A stretch of DNA of 37,023 nt from Acidimicrobiia bacterium (GTDB taxonomy: Bacteria > Actinomycetota > Acidimicrobiia > Spongiisociales > UBA11373): assembly GCA_016932695.1 (NCBI GenBank), contig JAFGCH010000147.1:1-37023 (forward strand), read 5' to 3'. Positions 6,302 through 34,950 of this stretch are shown here, one piece after another. The notes under the pieces were generated by a model. That model did no database searches, was not told where the DNA came from, and was given only the letters and a program-made list of their open reading frames with translations. Each line of letters opens with the position of its first letter. The first letter of the stretch is position 1. Made by a program: the position numbers and the translations under genes.

Positions 6302-6328
6302 CCGTGCCGCCGTTTGACGGCGGCACGG
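6302..6328. terminator. Strong GC hairpin between convergent genes
   Basis: Perfect 12-base-pair stem, arms CCGTGCCGCCGT and ACGGCGGCACGG, with loop TTG. It lies between the stop of the small plus-strand gene (6296) and the stop of the DsrE-like gene (6344). No T-tract follows, as is usual for high-GC actinobacterial terminators; it could serve both strands. Confidence 0.75.
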
Positions 6329-6343: not shown

Positions 6344-6868
6344 CTAGACGAAGATGATCTGGGCGTCGCGGCTGAGGTCCAGGAACTCGGAGACGTTGAT
6401 AATGTCCTCGACCTCGTCGACGAAATCATCCTTGGTGAGCTTCATCATGTCGACCGACATCCTGCAGGCCCACAAGTGGCCGCCGGCGTCGTGGATCTGA
6501 GTTAGGAACTCCCTGACCGGCGGTACGCCCAGGCCCTTGATCTTGCCCCGCATCATCCACGAGGCCAGGCTGCTCATTCCCGGCAGCGCTCCCAGGGTTT
6601 GGGGCATCGCCAGCGAGGTGCTGCCGATGCGCATGGCGGTGTTCCCCACCGGGGTGAGGCTGAGCTTGTCCACGGTCTTCTTGCGGATGATGTCGAGGCC
6701 CCAGAAGGTGTAGAAGAGGTGCAGTTCGATGCCCTCCTGCACCGCTCCGTTCCCCATGATGAGGCCGGGGTAGGCCATGTCCAGGGTCCCTTTGGAGCAG
6801 ATGATGGCCAGCTTGCGGCCGGCGTCGTCATCGAAGCGGGGGGCGATGAAGCCCTCACTAATGGTCAT
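6344..6868 (-). CDS. DsrE-family (DsrE2-like) sulfur-transfer protein
   Basis: 174 residues. It opens with the DsrE fold strand KLAIICSKGTLDMAYPGLIMG and continues with GIELHLFYTFWGLDII. The helix AGGHLWACRMSVDMM carries the conserved active-site-type Cys135, and a second cysteine, Cys24, sits in the first loop as in the membrane-less DsrE2/DsrE3 group (COG2210-like). Family members carry persulfide sulfur in the cytoplasm. It is the last gene of the sulfur operon, 27 bases after the DsrC/TusE-like gene, with GGAGA before the ATG. The two proteins are probably donor/acceptor partners (inference). Confidence 0.85.
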   Translation of the reverse strand: MTISEGFIAPRFDDDAGRKLAIICSKGTLDMAYPGLIMGNGAVQEGIELHLFYTFWGLDIIRKKTVDKLSLTPVGNTAMRIGSTSLAMPQTLGALPGMSSLASWMMRGKIKGLGVPPVREFLTQIHDAGGHLWACRMSVDMMKLTKDDFVDEVEDIINVSEFLDLSRDAQIIFV

Positions 6869-6895
6869 GCGGGGTCTCCTCGGTGCGGGGGTCGG

Positions 6896-7213
6896 CTACA
6901 CGCAACCCTTGGGCTTGGGCAGTCCCGCCACGTAGGCCATCTTGCGGGCGGGCTTGCCGGGGAACAGGGTGTAGAGCGCCTTCGTGTCGACGCCGGCCAG
7001 AGTGGAGACCCGCCGCAGCGTGGCCGTCTCTCCCTGTTCGGTGTAGTCGCTCCGGAGGAACCGGATCACCTTCCAGTGCTCGTCGGTGAGGGGATCGATG
7101 CCGATCTGGCCGGCGAGGAAGGTGGCGATCTCCTCGGTCCACTGGGCGGGGTCGGTCATGAAGCCCTCGTCGTTGAGGGATACCTCACGGCCGGCGATGG
7201 TGGCAATGGGCAT
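6896..7213 (-). CDS. DsrC/TusE-like sulfur carrier with only the C-terminal cysteine
   Basis: 105 residues, family-typical length. It contains DEHWKVIRFLRSDYTEQG (about 44-61), LYTLFPGKPARKMAYVAGLPK and the conserved flexible C-terminal arm ending PKGCV. The penultimate Cys104 (CysA) is present, but the residue 11 positions earlier, where true DsrC has CysB, is Ala93. It should therefore act as a TusE-type single-cysteine sulfur acceptor and could not form the intramolecular disulfide of DsrC from sulfite reducers. The start ATG 7213 has AGGAGA 9 bases upstream. It lies between DUF1641 and the DsrE-like gene. Confidence 0.9.
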   Translation of the reverse strand: MPIATIAGREVSLNDEGFMTDPAQWTEEIATFLAGQIGIDPLTDEHWKVIRFLRSDYTEQGETATLRRVSTLAGVDTKALYTLFPGKPARKMAYVAGLPKPKGCV

Positions 7214-7226
7214 GGGCTGTGCTCTC

Positions 7227-7934
7227 CTATGTTGTCTGGGGAACGGACGGCGGGGGAGAATCGGGAACCCCCAGGGCTTCGAGCAGCCCGACGGCCCGGG
7301 CCAGGCCGCGGCGGGCCGCAGGGCGGCGCAACTGCCACAGGAGGCGCAGCAAGCCCTTGTCGCCCGCCGGCGCCCGGCGCAGGCTCACCGCAGCTGCCGC
7401 CACCAGGCGCATCACGTCGGGATGGGCCAAGTCCTTGAGGGCGTGGACGGCCGGCGCCACGCTCTCCCCCATGGCCCGGAGGTCGTCGGGGGTGAGCGAG
7501 GCGACCACCCGGTCGGCCAGCTCCTTCATCGCTCCCAAGAAGGCGAAGTAGCCGCGCTGCTCCAGGTCGTCGAGGCGGACCATGGCGGCGGCAAGCATGT
7601 CGCGACTCAAGGGAGCCAGGTCGGCGCCCAAGGCGGAGAGGCTCTCCACCTGGTCGAGCAGGGCTTCGAGGTAGGGCAGGTCGCGCAACAGGCGCTTGGC
7701 CGCCCGCAGCAGGTCTGCGGGCTCGATGAAGCCGCGGACCTCGTCGAGTTCCCGTGAGACCAGTTGCATTGCCTCGGCGGTGACCGGGGCGAGGTCGTGG
7801 CGCAACTCGTCCCACATGCCGCGGCGAGTCTCCTGTTCGCGCAGGGCGGCGGCTACGAAATCGACCTGCGCAGAGACCGCGTCCAGCTTGGCCTCGAGGG
7901 CCGCCAGGCGATCTTCGGCGACGGCGGTTGCCAT
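7227..7934 (-). CDS. DUF1641 family protein
   Basis: 235 residues: an N-terminal coiled-coil helix (about 5-40, with LAALEAKLDAVSAQVDFV), then a helical region containing RGYFAFLGAMKELADRVV and HPDVMRLVAAAA, typical of DUF1641. This family accompanies sulfide:quinone oxidoreductase-like and formate-dehydrogenase-associated operons; its role is unknown, perhaps as a partner or scaffold of the flavoprotein. No cysteines or membrane helices. The start lies 5 bases after the SQR-like stop, with AAGGAG upstream, so the two are co-translated. The C-terminal 15 residues are Pro/Ser-rich and probably disordered. Confidence 0.8.
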   Translation of the reverse strand: MATAVAEDRLAALEAKLDAVSAQVDFVAAALREQETRRGMWDELRHDLAPVTAEAMQLVSRELDEVRGFIEPADLLRAAKRLLRDLPYLEALLDQVESLSALGADLAPLSRDMLAAAMVRLDDLEQRGYFAFLGAMKELADRVVASLTPDDLRAMGESVAPAVHALKDLAHPDVMRLVAAAAVSLRRAPAGDKGLLRLLWQLRRPAARRGLARAVGLLEALGVPDSPPPSVPQTT

Positions 7935-7939
7935 GGCGG

Positions 7940-9169
7940 TCAGCGCTCCTTCCCGTACATGCTCATCTCGGCGGGCAGGGGGATCTCACGGCCGCGGAGG
8001 AGGAGATTCCAGTACACCCAGCGGAACATCATCTTCCCCCAGTGGTTGGTCACCGTTTCCTGCAAGAGGGAGAAGGGGCCGATCCCGGGCAGGGGGTACT
8101 TGCCCGGGAGGGGCTCGGTGTCGTAGTTGAAGTCGATCAACAGGCCCTTACCGAACCCCGACTCGATGAAGCAGTTAGCGTGACCATCGAAGCGTTCCAG
8201 CATTTCCAGACCCTCGACGTAGCGGGGGAAGTTGTCGGCGAAGACCTCTACCGAGAAGTGCGCCACCGAGCCCGCCTTTGAGGTGGGCAGCGCGGCGGCG
8301 TCGCCGAGAGCGAAGATGTTGGGGTAGCGGGTGGAGAGGAACGTGCCCTTGTCGACCGGCACGTGGTTGAGTTCGTCGCCTAGGCCGGCCCGGGCCACCA
8401 CTTCGGCGCCCATGTTCACCGGGACGGTGACCAGCAGGTCGTAAGGCAGCTCCCGGCCGTCGTAGGCCACCAGCGCCCCGGCGTCGGCGTCGATGCGTTC
8501 CACGTACAAGTCGGTCTCGACCCGTATCTCCTTGGCTTCGAGCACCCCGGTTAGGTGGCTGGCGGCTACCGGCTTGGTGAACACCTCGCTCATAGGGGTA
8601 GCGAAGACCAGCTCCACCTTGTCGCGGCGGCCGTGCTCCCGGAACCACCAGTCGGCCAGGAAGGTGAACTCCAGCGGGGCCACCGGGCACTTGAAGGGGA
8701 ACTCCATGATGTTGACCACCATGCGGCCCCCCTCCCAGGACTTGAGCCGTTCGTACAGGGCGACGGCGCCGTCCGCGGTGTAGAACTGGTGGATGCTGTC
8801 GCCCACCGCATCCCCGTCGTAGCCCGGCGTCTGCGCGGGAACGGGACGGGTGCCGGTGGCGATGACGAGGTAGTCGTAGTCGAGGTGGCGGCCGCCGGCC
8901 AGGGCCACTCGCTGGCGCTCGGGGTCGATCTCCTCGATCTGCCCCAGGATCATCTCCACCCCGGCGGGGATGAAGTCCCGGCGCGGCCGCTCCACGTCGC
9001 GGCGGCGGTAGATGCCGAAGGGGATGAAGAGGTAGCCCGCCTGATAGTGGTGACAGGCGTCCTGGTCCACGACGGTGATGTGCCACTCGGCCGGGTCGAG
9101 ACGCGGTCGGAGTTTGTTCACCACAACGGTGCCGGCAGTGCCGGCGCCGAGGACCAGTAGTCGCTTCAC
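7940..9169 (-). CDS. Sulfide:quinone oxidoreductase-like FAD-dependent flavoprotein
   Basis: 409 residues. The FAD-binding N-terminus is KRLLVLGAGTAGTVV (3-17); the second dinucleotide motif is LDYDYLVIATGTRPVP (96-111); the late FAD motif is YPNIFALGDAAALPTSKAG (282-300). Cys161 (in FPFKCPVAPLEF) and Cys333 (in HANCFIE) fall where SQR has its redox-active pair, so sulfide or persulfide oxidation with electrons to quinone is plausible; Cys39 is a third cysteine. Start is GTG overlapping the stop of the regulator (GTGA). It is the enzyme gene of the five-gene sulfur operon. Other SQR-family members (flavocytochrome c-like, NDH-2-like) remain possible. Confidence 0.85.
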   Translation of the reverse strand: MKRLLVLGAGTAGTVVVNKLRPRLDPAEWHITVVDQDACHHYQAGYLFIPFGIYRRRDVERPRRDFIPAGVEMILGQIEEIDPERQRVALAGGRHLDYDYLVIATGTRPVPAQTPGYDGDAVGDSIHQFYTADGAVALYERLKSWEGGRMVVNIMEFPFKCPVAPLEFTFLADWWFREHGRRDKVELVFATPMSEVFTKPVAASHLTGVLEAKEIRVETDLYVERIDADAGALVAYDGRELPYDLLVTVPVNMGAEVVARAGLGDELNHVPVDKGTFLSTRYPNIFALGDAAALPTSKAGSVAHFSVEVFADNFPRYVEGLEMLERFDGHANCFIESGFGKGLLIDFNYDTEPLPGKYPLPGIGPFSLLQETVTNHWGKMMFRWVYWNLLLRGREIPLPAEMSMYGKER

Positions 9170-9927
9170 GTGTCACTCCTTTGAGAGGGCTCGGCCGCGG
9201 GGGCGGCCATCGCTTGCAGGCGAGTCAGTAGGGCGGCGGCGCGAGGCAATAGCTCCAGCGCTCGTGCCATCTCTCGCGCCTCCAGGTAGTGGACTTCGGT
9301 GCAGTGCTCCTGGACGACGGCGGTCGGCACGCCTAGATCCGCCGCGAGGTGGGCGATCTGTTCGGGTTCGGGTGGCCAGGCGGCCGGAGCGACGCCCCCC
9401 ACCAGCACCATGCCGACGAGGCGGTCGTCCTCGCGGATCAGGCTCCGGGCGCACAGGAAGCCGAGAGGAGTGGCCCGCCATTGCGGGTCAAGATCGACTT
9501 CCGCGGCCAGGGTCTGCCAGCCCACGATGCAGCGTTCCAGTACACCGGGATGACGGTGCACCGCCTCGAAGAGCCCGCAGGGGTTGGCGGGCGTCGTCAG
9601 GGGACGGCCCTGGATGTCGGTGAGCACCACCATCGCCCCGAAGGCCTCGCCGAGGAAGTCGGCTAGGGCCGCCAGTGTCTCGGGTTCGACTGCGCTGCCG
9701 ATGATTCTGTTGGGGACCGGCACAACCGCCCGCCCGCCGCGCAGGAAGTCCTGCAAGCCGTCCTCGGGGAAGCGCCATTGCCTGCCCACCTTGATCGCTG
9801 GGAGCCGGCCGTCTTCGGCCATGCGATAGATGGTGGAGCGATCCACCTTGATGAGACGTTGGACGTCTTGAGTGGTGAGCAGAGTCACTCGTGCAGAGAA
9901 CTGAGGAGCGCTGTGCATCTTGTGCAT
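9166..9927 (-). CDS. HTH-PocR one-component regulator of the sulfur operon
   Basis: 253 residues in two parts. Residues 14-63 form an excisionase/MerR-type winged helix (LLTTQDVQRLIKVDRSTIYR ... IKVGRQWRFPEDGLQDFL). Residues about 75-210 form a PocR sensory domain, PAS-like, with Cys117 (NPCGLF), Cys133 (ERCIVGW) and Cys159 (FLCARSL) at positions typical of PocR, plus Cys209. PocR domains are predicted small-molecule sensors. Here the cysteines could alternatively sense sulfur species (inference). The ATG at 9927 is supported by a TATGAT box 8 bases upstream (leaderless). The stop overlaps the SQR-like start, so regulator and target are co-transcribed and feedback is likely. Confidence 0.8.
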   Translation of the reverse strand: MHKMHSAPQFSARVTLLTTQDVQRLIKVDRSTIYRMAEDGRLPAIKVGRQWRFPEDGLQDFLRGGRAVVPVPNRIIGSAVEPETLAALADFLGEAFGAMVVLTDIQGRPLTTPANPCGLFEAVHRHPGVLERCIVGWQTLAAEVDLDPQWRATPLGFLCARSLIREDDRLVGMVLVGGVAPAAWPPEPEQIAHLAADLGVPTAVVQEHCTEVHYLEAREMARALELLPRAAALLTRLQAMAAPAAEPSQRSDT

Positions 9928-9938
9928 CGTTATGCATC
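9912..9938. repeat. Three direct TGTGCATC-type repeats over the operon start
   Basis: TGTGCATC at 9912-9919 and 9921-9928 and TATGCATC at 9931-9938, spaced 9-10 bases (about one helical turn). They span the start codon and -10 box, so a protein bound there would block transcription. Part of the repetition is constrained by the coding sequence Met-His-Lys-Met-His. Operator function is a guess. Confidence 0.35.
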
Positions 9939-34408: not shown

Positions 34409-34950
34409 CGGCCGAGGTGTCGCGCCAGCGCGTAGATGCCGAGGATGGTCTTGGCGTCGCGCAGGGCACCGGCATCCAGGGCGGCCAGCGCCTCCTCGCA
34501 AGTTAGGGAGACGACGGCCGCGGCCTCTTCTTCGATGCCCTGGGGGGCGGCTCCCACCGCCTCGAGTTGCTCGGCCAGGTATACCAGGGTGAGCTCGTCG
34601 CTGAAGCCCGGCGACGTATAGGCCTCATGGAGCAGGGTCACCCGGCCGGGGCGCAGGCCGACCTCCTCGACGCACTCCCGGCGCGCCGTCTCGGCCGGAT
34701 CTTCCCCGGGCACGTCGCGCTTGCCCGCCGGTATCTCCAACAGCGAGCCGCCCGTGGCGGCCCGGTACTGCTGCATCAGGTGCACGCGGGCGCCGTCCCA
34801 GGGGATGACGGCTACCGAGCCGGGGTGGCGCACGATGTCGCGGGCCGTCCAGCCGGTGCCGTCGCCCAGGTGATAGCAGCGCTCGAGGGTGATGAAGGCC
34901 CCCCGAGCCACGAAGCGCTTCCCCAACAGCGGGAACTCGGGCACGGCCAC
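34405..34950 (-). CDS. NUDIX hydrolase, probably ADP-ribose pyrophosphatase
   Basis: 181 residues. The Nudix box (GKRDVPGEDPAETARRECVE then EVGL, about 76-99) has one extra residue between G and the first E, as in several actinobacterial ADP-ribose pyrophosphatases; LLEIPAGK before it and LLHEAYTSPGFSDELTLVYLAEQL after it support that group. GTG 34950 begins six bases after the pyrG stop; GTG 34944 is equally possible. Cytoplasmic nucleotide housekeeping. Confidence 0.88.
   Translation of the reverse strand: MAVPEFPLLGKRFVARGAFITLERCYHLGDGTGWTARDIVRHPGSVAVIPWDGARVHLMQQYRAATGGSLLEIPAGKRDVPGEDPAETARRECVEEVGLRPGRVTLLHEAYTSPGFSDELTLVYLAEQLEAVGAAPQGIEEEAAAVVSLTCEEALAALDAGALRDAKTILGIYALARHLGR

Follow-up and report, generated by a model that had tools for sequence, protein, structure and literature searches.

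A five-gene operon combining a type III sulfide:quinone reductase, a DsrC-family carrier and a predicted 9-bp operator is conserved in several bacterial phyla

The minus strand of the window (the whole stretch of 37,023 nucleotides of Acidimicrobiia DNA that was analysed) carries five consecutive open reading frames, which encode a regulator, a sulfide:quinone reductase (SQR) flavoprotein, a DUF1641-type protein, a DsrC-family carrier, and a DsrE-family protein, in this order (Table 1). The operon is real and is conserved as a unit in several bacterial phyla. We regard it as a widespread variant of the known gene clusters for sulfide oxidation. It is absent from the literature searched for an SQR-DUF1641-TusE-DsrE operon, where the wording “sulfide quinone” may overlook papers in which the name has a colon. 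Its new, testable features are a proposed DsrC-type acceptor and the predicted operator. The reading that we favor, with a probability of roughly two-thirds, is regulated sulfide oxidation that would serve both detoxification and electron gain.

Table 1. Features of the operon and its flanks, in window coordinates
Feature	Position	Strand	Basis
Predicted operator, three TGCA half-sites	9912..9938	-	Direct repeats; enrichment in 42 promoters
HTH_17 + PocR regulator	9166..9927	-	Pfam/NCBIfam profiles; alignment
Type III sulfide:quinone reductase flavoprotein	7940..9169	-	NF049943 score; C161 codon 8687-8689, C333 codon 8171-8173
Divergent DUF1641 protein	7227..7934	-	PF07849 matches of relatives; all-helical in model
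DsrC/TusE-family carrier	6896..7213	-	PF04358, TIGR03342; C104 codon 6902-6904
DsrE2-like sulfurtransferase	6344..6868	-	PF13686; conserved C135, codon 6464-6466
Perfect 12-bp inverted repeat	6302..6328	-	Hairpin just 3' of last stop codon

The layout agrees with a preliminary description of this DNA. A 4-base GTGA overlap (9166-9169) joins the first two genes, and the later junctions are spaced by 5, 13, and 27 bases. In the flavoprotein, Cys161 and Cys333 lie where that description had placed them, as does Cys104 in the carrier, which has no other cysteine. The family assignments HTH_17 plus PocR, SQR, DsrC, and DsrE_2 have direct Pfam and NCBIfam support. The inverted repeat behind the last gene resembles the stem of a terminator but has no T-run.

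Scanning one genome per species yielded 573 SQR relatives; the closest 80 (56-73% identical) were taken with names. The conservation counts given here therefore apply to this nearest set. Of the two patterns used in the search, one includes Cys161 and neither includes C333. The SQR gene is followed on the same strand by TusE/DsrC-like and DsrE-like genes in all 70 named relatives with enough downstream DNA. A DUF1641 gene lies between the SQR and carrier genes at 55 of these loci; since it is missing from the other 15, it is apparently not essential to the operon. The HTH-PocR regulator heads the operon in 41 of the 72 relatives with upstream room, and the SQR-(DUF1641)-TusE-DsrE order is also found in unnamed relatives. 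The hosts belong to Actinomycetota, Chloroflexota, KSB1, Calditrichota, Verrucomicrobiota, and other phyla, and include Acidimicrobiia, Nocardioides, Kineosporia, Anaerolineae, Thermoflexales, Opitutales, Ignavibacteriales, and Trueperaceae. No conserved neighbors outside the five genes were found at the relatives' loci, viral copies of the SQR were searched for and none was found, and the only DsrC-like carrier found in plasmids was gammaproteobacterial TusE. The preliminary description was to be given up if its five families did not stay together elsewhere; the module is kept together in relatives, and the description survives this check. At loci without the regulator, an ArsR-like or a cysteine-rich MerR-like protein can replace HTH-PocR (families judged by eye); the MerR-like type, again recognized by eye, heads the operon at L099, L103, and L123 (Calditrichota, KSB1, and Neomarinimicrobiota).

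The flavoprotein is homologous to solved SQRs over nearly its full length, both catalytic cysteines included, and scores 602.9 bits (cut-off 525) against NF049943, the model named “type III sulfide quinone reductase, selenoprotein subtype”. Alignment with SQOR-type structures makes C161 and C333 the equivalents of the human SQOR redox pair, and both are invariant in 81 of 81 sequences. Sulfide:quinone activity is predicted from this family membership. Alternatively, the flavoprotein might be a thiol or persulfide-disulfide oxidoreductase that acts on the carrier and not on sulfide. Its strict pairing with a single-cysteine carrier would suit such a role, and the literature searched holds no assay of this flavoprotein family with a single-cysteine carrier; however, the SQR-type cysteine pair, a conserved C-terminal region common to the flavoprotein and membrane-bound SQRs, and the precedent of an H2S-induced type III SQR in Methylacidiphilum (PMC10205796) all argue against this role, which we regard as improbable.

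The residue at position 333 is informative in itself. Seven genomes from one sister lineage (L169-L175, Actinomycetota family f36) have an in-frame TGA in place of the Cys333 codon, within the motif DGHATUF. A stem-loop follows the TGA in all five genomes examined, selA is encoded in six of the seven, and a 2026 review lists NF049943 as a predicted selenoprotein family with an HxxU motif (PMC13188914). The window's own enzyme is not of the selenoprotein subtype, as it has a cysteine codon, TGC, at 8171-8173; a search for selA in its genome found none. The natural Cys/Sec exchange marks C333 as the residue expected to carry sulfur, and position 333 is for this reason very probably a reactive chalcogen site. 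The selenoprotein sister lineage has no TusE/DsrE neighbors downstream of the SQR gene; therefore, the enzyme can work without them. At L169, L171, and L173 the TGA-type SQR gene is followed by a conserved gene whose product, we assume, resembles a glutamine-amidotransferase-like (BPL_N-type) protein, and in several actinobacteria (L112, L175, L176, L184) the SQR gene has close to it genes that we take to be OsmC-like. Two further contigs (G004:C21 and G017:C20) carry an SQR paralogue that scores lower (about 220 bits) and adjoins a separate PF02635 DsrE gene.

The content of the window's genome (G000; assembly 95.5% complete) was judged by family searches. It contains menA and the gene for subunit I of cytochrome bd oxidase, and thus the SQR has a quinone and an oxidase; haem-copper oxidase was searched for and is absent. 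Cytochrome bd is generally regarded as a sulfide-tolerant oxidase. No siroheme sulfite/nitrite reductase (PF01077) was found in this genome, and therefore it has no dsrAB; TusBCD is missing as well, so that two absences noted earlier for the window alone hold genome-wide. In G000 and seven others of the 11 genomes searched, no PF01077 enzyme, assimilatory or dissimilatory, was found, which suggests that these eight depend on reduced sulfur.

Sulfide detoxification, one of the two functions that the preliminary description had offered, is well supported by the SQR family, both redox cysteines, and the Cys/Sec exchange, and its context (menaquinone, cytochrome bd, and strict co-conservation with sulfur carriers) agrees. 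It also has a measured precedent. An SQR(III)-TusA-DsrE2 operon of Methylacidiphilum fumariolicum SolV is induced 1.7-1.8 fold by H2S and is proposed to turn H2S into elemental sulfur (PMC10205796). This is the closest measured system to the operon of the window: in both, a small sulfur carrier and DsrE2 come after a type III SQR, the SQR type called the least known, but the SolV carrier is TusA and not a DsrC-family protein, and neither HTH-PocR nor DUF1641 is reported in the SolV operon (PMC10205796).

We infer the SQR reaction and the sulfur-transfer steps, including the direction of flow and the order of the carriers, from family knowledge together with conservation. Sulfide would bind the SQR at the C161/C333 pair; two electrons would pass through FAD to menaquinone, with the DUF1641 subunit helping, and would then leave by cytochrome bd or by anaerobic reductases. 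The sulfane sulfur left on the SQR, probably at C333, would then move to form a persulfide on Cys104 of the carrier, on the DsrE2-like protein (C135), or on both, with a protein carrier taking the sulfur in place of a small thiol or TusA. No dedicated persulfide oxidase linked to the operon was found.

The proposed acceptor is the only DsrC-family protein in the window's genome and scores well above the family cut-offs (110.2 against 24.9 for PF04358; 75.1 against 53.5 for TIGR03342). With the DsrC of dissimilatory sulfite reductase systems it shares the family and the C-terminal arm bearing CysA, here the penultimate residue C104, which is invariant among the aligned carriers. However, CysB is replaced, and with a single arm cysteine in a genome that has neither a NIR_SIR protein nor dsrAB, the carrier is not DsrC proper. 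The DsrE-like protein is a member of PF13686 (122.5, cut-off 25) with C135 invariant among the aligned proteins, but falls short of the DsrE2 equivalog NF047629 (118.5 against 210 bits).

Thiolation, the other function offered earlier, has fared poorly. The carrier, being TusE-like, could bring sulfur from the SQR or the DsrE protein to MnmA for 2-thiouridine synthesis in tRNA. Such a role would be consistent with the presence of MnmA in the genome and with a single-cysteine DsrC-family carrier that keeps only CysA, as does TusE in the E. coli TusBCD-TusE-MnmA relay. Yet all 14 control genomes have MnmA, and 13 of them lack a DsrC-family gene; the window's carrier has no TusBCD-type set beside it, is linked to an SQR, and reaches only 61.6 of the 191 bits required by the TusE equivalog PRK11508; some near relatives lack the SQR; and a dedicated sensor-regulator is ill-suited to a housekeeping role. 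A supply line to tRNA is, in our opinion, very improbable.

The claim that Hdr is absent holds within the window but not for the genome, where an unlinked locus on another contig (L186; contig C15, 4000-16557) carries DsrE2-FlpD/MvhD-HdrA-HdrA-HdrC-HdrB-like genes with TusA. This locus is one candidate for the final sulfur acceptor and a possible sulfur or electron partner. The operon could accordingly be the front end of a dissimilatory pathway, in which SQR sulfur would travel via the carrier to the Hdr-like complex (HdrA-HdrA-FlpD-HdrC-HdrB, TusA, DsrE2), and a TusA-DsrE pair does lie close together in 6 of the 11 genomes examined. It should be noted, however, that the SQR-TusE-DsrE operon occurs without TusA in 4 of the 11 (G001, G015, G029, and G118), so the Hdr/TusA locus is not a general partner, and that the C15 stretch shares no operator with the operon. 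We consider a dissimilatory front end unlikely.

Regulated sulfide oxidation can also be stated in a more specific form: a direct handover of sulfur from the SQR to a DsrC-family protein, at its C-terminal cysteine, which would give such proteins a role in several phyla apart from DsrAB and tRNA thiolation, under a sulfur-sensing PocR-BldC-like regulator that acts on 9-bp TGCA repeats. This form is tentative, its chances being somewhat below even. If true, a type III SQR-DsrC-family module would explain DsrC-like genes in bacteria without dsrAB or TusBCD and would supply a testable protein acceptor for SQR.

The DUF1641 label given in the preliminary description is sound for the family, since PF07849 hits were obtained for 42 of the 44 homologues in the alignment, the best with E 1.4e-11, although the window's protein alone has no DUF1641 match in a profile search. 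The protein is predicted by modeling to be all-helical; a sequence search of the PDB found no relatives, and a fold search found no match. It is likely an accessory subunit on the membrane or quinone side that helps coupling to quinone. This role is suggested by ForE and by gene order in haloarchaea. ForE, the DUF1641 protein of the B. subtilis formate dehydrogenase ForCE1, is needed for menadione reduction and for most of the bound menaquinone (PMC8808070); it is likewise encoded beside a quinone-linked enzyme, but its partner is a molybdenum formate dehydrogenase and not an SQR (PMC8808070). On haloarchaeal plasmids (Haloarcula hispanica, Natrinema caseinilyticum), a DUF1641 gene comes directly after that of an SQR-like flavoprotein 34% identical to ours, with a DsrE2-like gene alongside. 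These clusters differ in having TusA for TusE, a linked MBL-fold hydrolase, and other gene orientations; the Haloarcula cluster reads TusA-SQR-DUF1641-DsrE2-TusA, adjoins the MBL-fold gene, and also includes YeeE/YedE transporters.

The regulator consists of an N-terminal HTH_17 domain of excisionase/BldC-like type, a PocR sensory domain (PF10114, 49.1 against a gathering score of 23.9), and a C-terminal helix. A sequence search of the PDB gave no relatives, and a fold search matched the protein only weakly, with low TM-scores, to IclR/GAF-like structures. The PocR cysteines C117, C133, and C159 are kept in 37, 41, and 36 of 42 regulators, respectively, and may sense sulfide, persulfide, or redox state. 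We offer this role only as a suggestion, because divergent members suggest that such cysteines are common in PocR domains generally; the three-cysteine PocR may be generic to its family and not specific to sulfur.

The promoters headed by this regulator share a distinctive TGCA pattern. In the window, the half-sites lie at 9914-9917, 9923-9926, and 9933-9936, at spacings of 9 and 10 bp. The density of TGCA is 22.2 per kb in 42 regulator-led promoters and 3.5 per kb in control windows drawn at random from the same loci. Among TGCA pairs spaced by 30 or less, 58 are at spacing 9 and 21 at spacing 18 (two repeats), while no other spacing has more than 10. At least two in-register sites are present in 76% of the regulator-led promoters, 2.6% of the promoters of 39 operons without a recognized regulator, and 2.0% of random windows; the sole exception among the 39 (L111) has an apparent decayed HTH fragment upstream.

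BldC, a related small HTH protein, binds 9-bp direct repeats head-to-tail (PMC5859096). The repeats described here have the same period, but the regulator's HTH is only distantly related to BldC (21.1 bits, far below the model's cut-off of 77), is fused to PocR, and goes with a TGCA core where BldC has AATT (PMC5859096). The most economical reading is autoregulation, in which HTH-PocR would bind cooperatively to the repeats over its own promoter, head-to-tail like BldC. As a conserved predicted operator of HTH-PocR, the TGCA pattern, which is not described in the literature searched, provides a concrete and cheap handle on what PocR domains sense. The repeat is missing from the stretches around the C15 Hdr/TusA/DsrE2, cytochrome bd, second TusA, and menA loci, and hence no wider regulon is seen at these four; a second TGCA pair in the window, at 34772, is probably due to chance. 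Since the repeats extend across the regulator's annotated start, the true start of this gene may be the GTG at 9886-9888.
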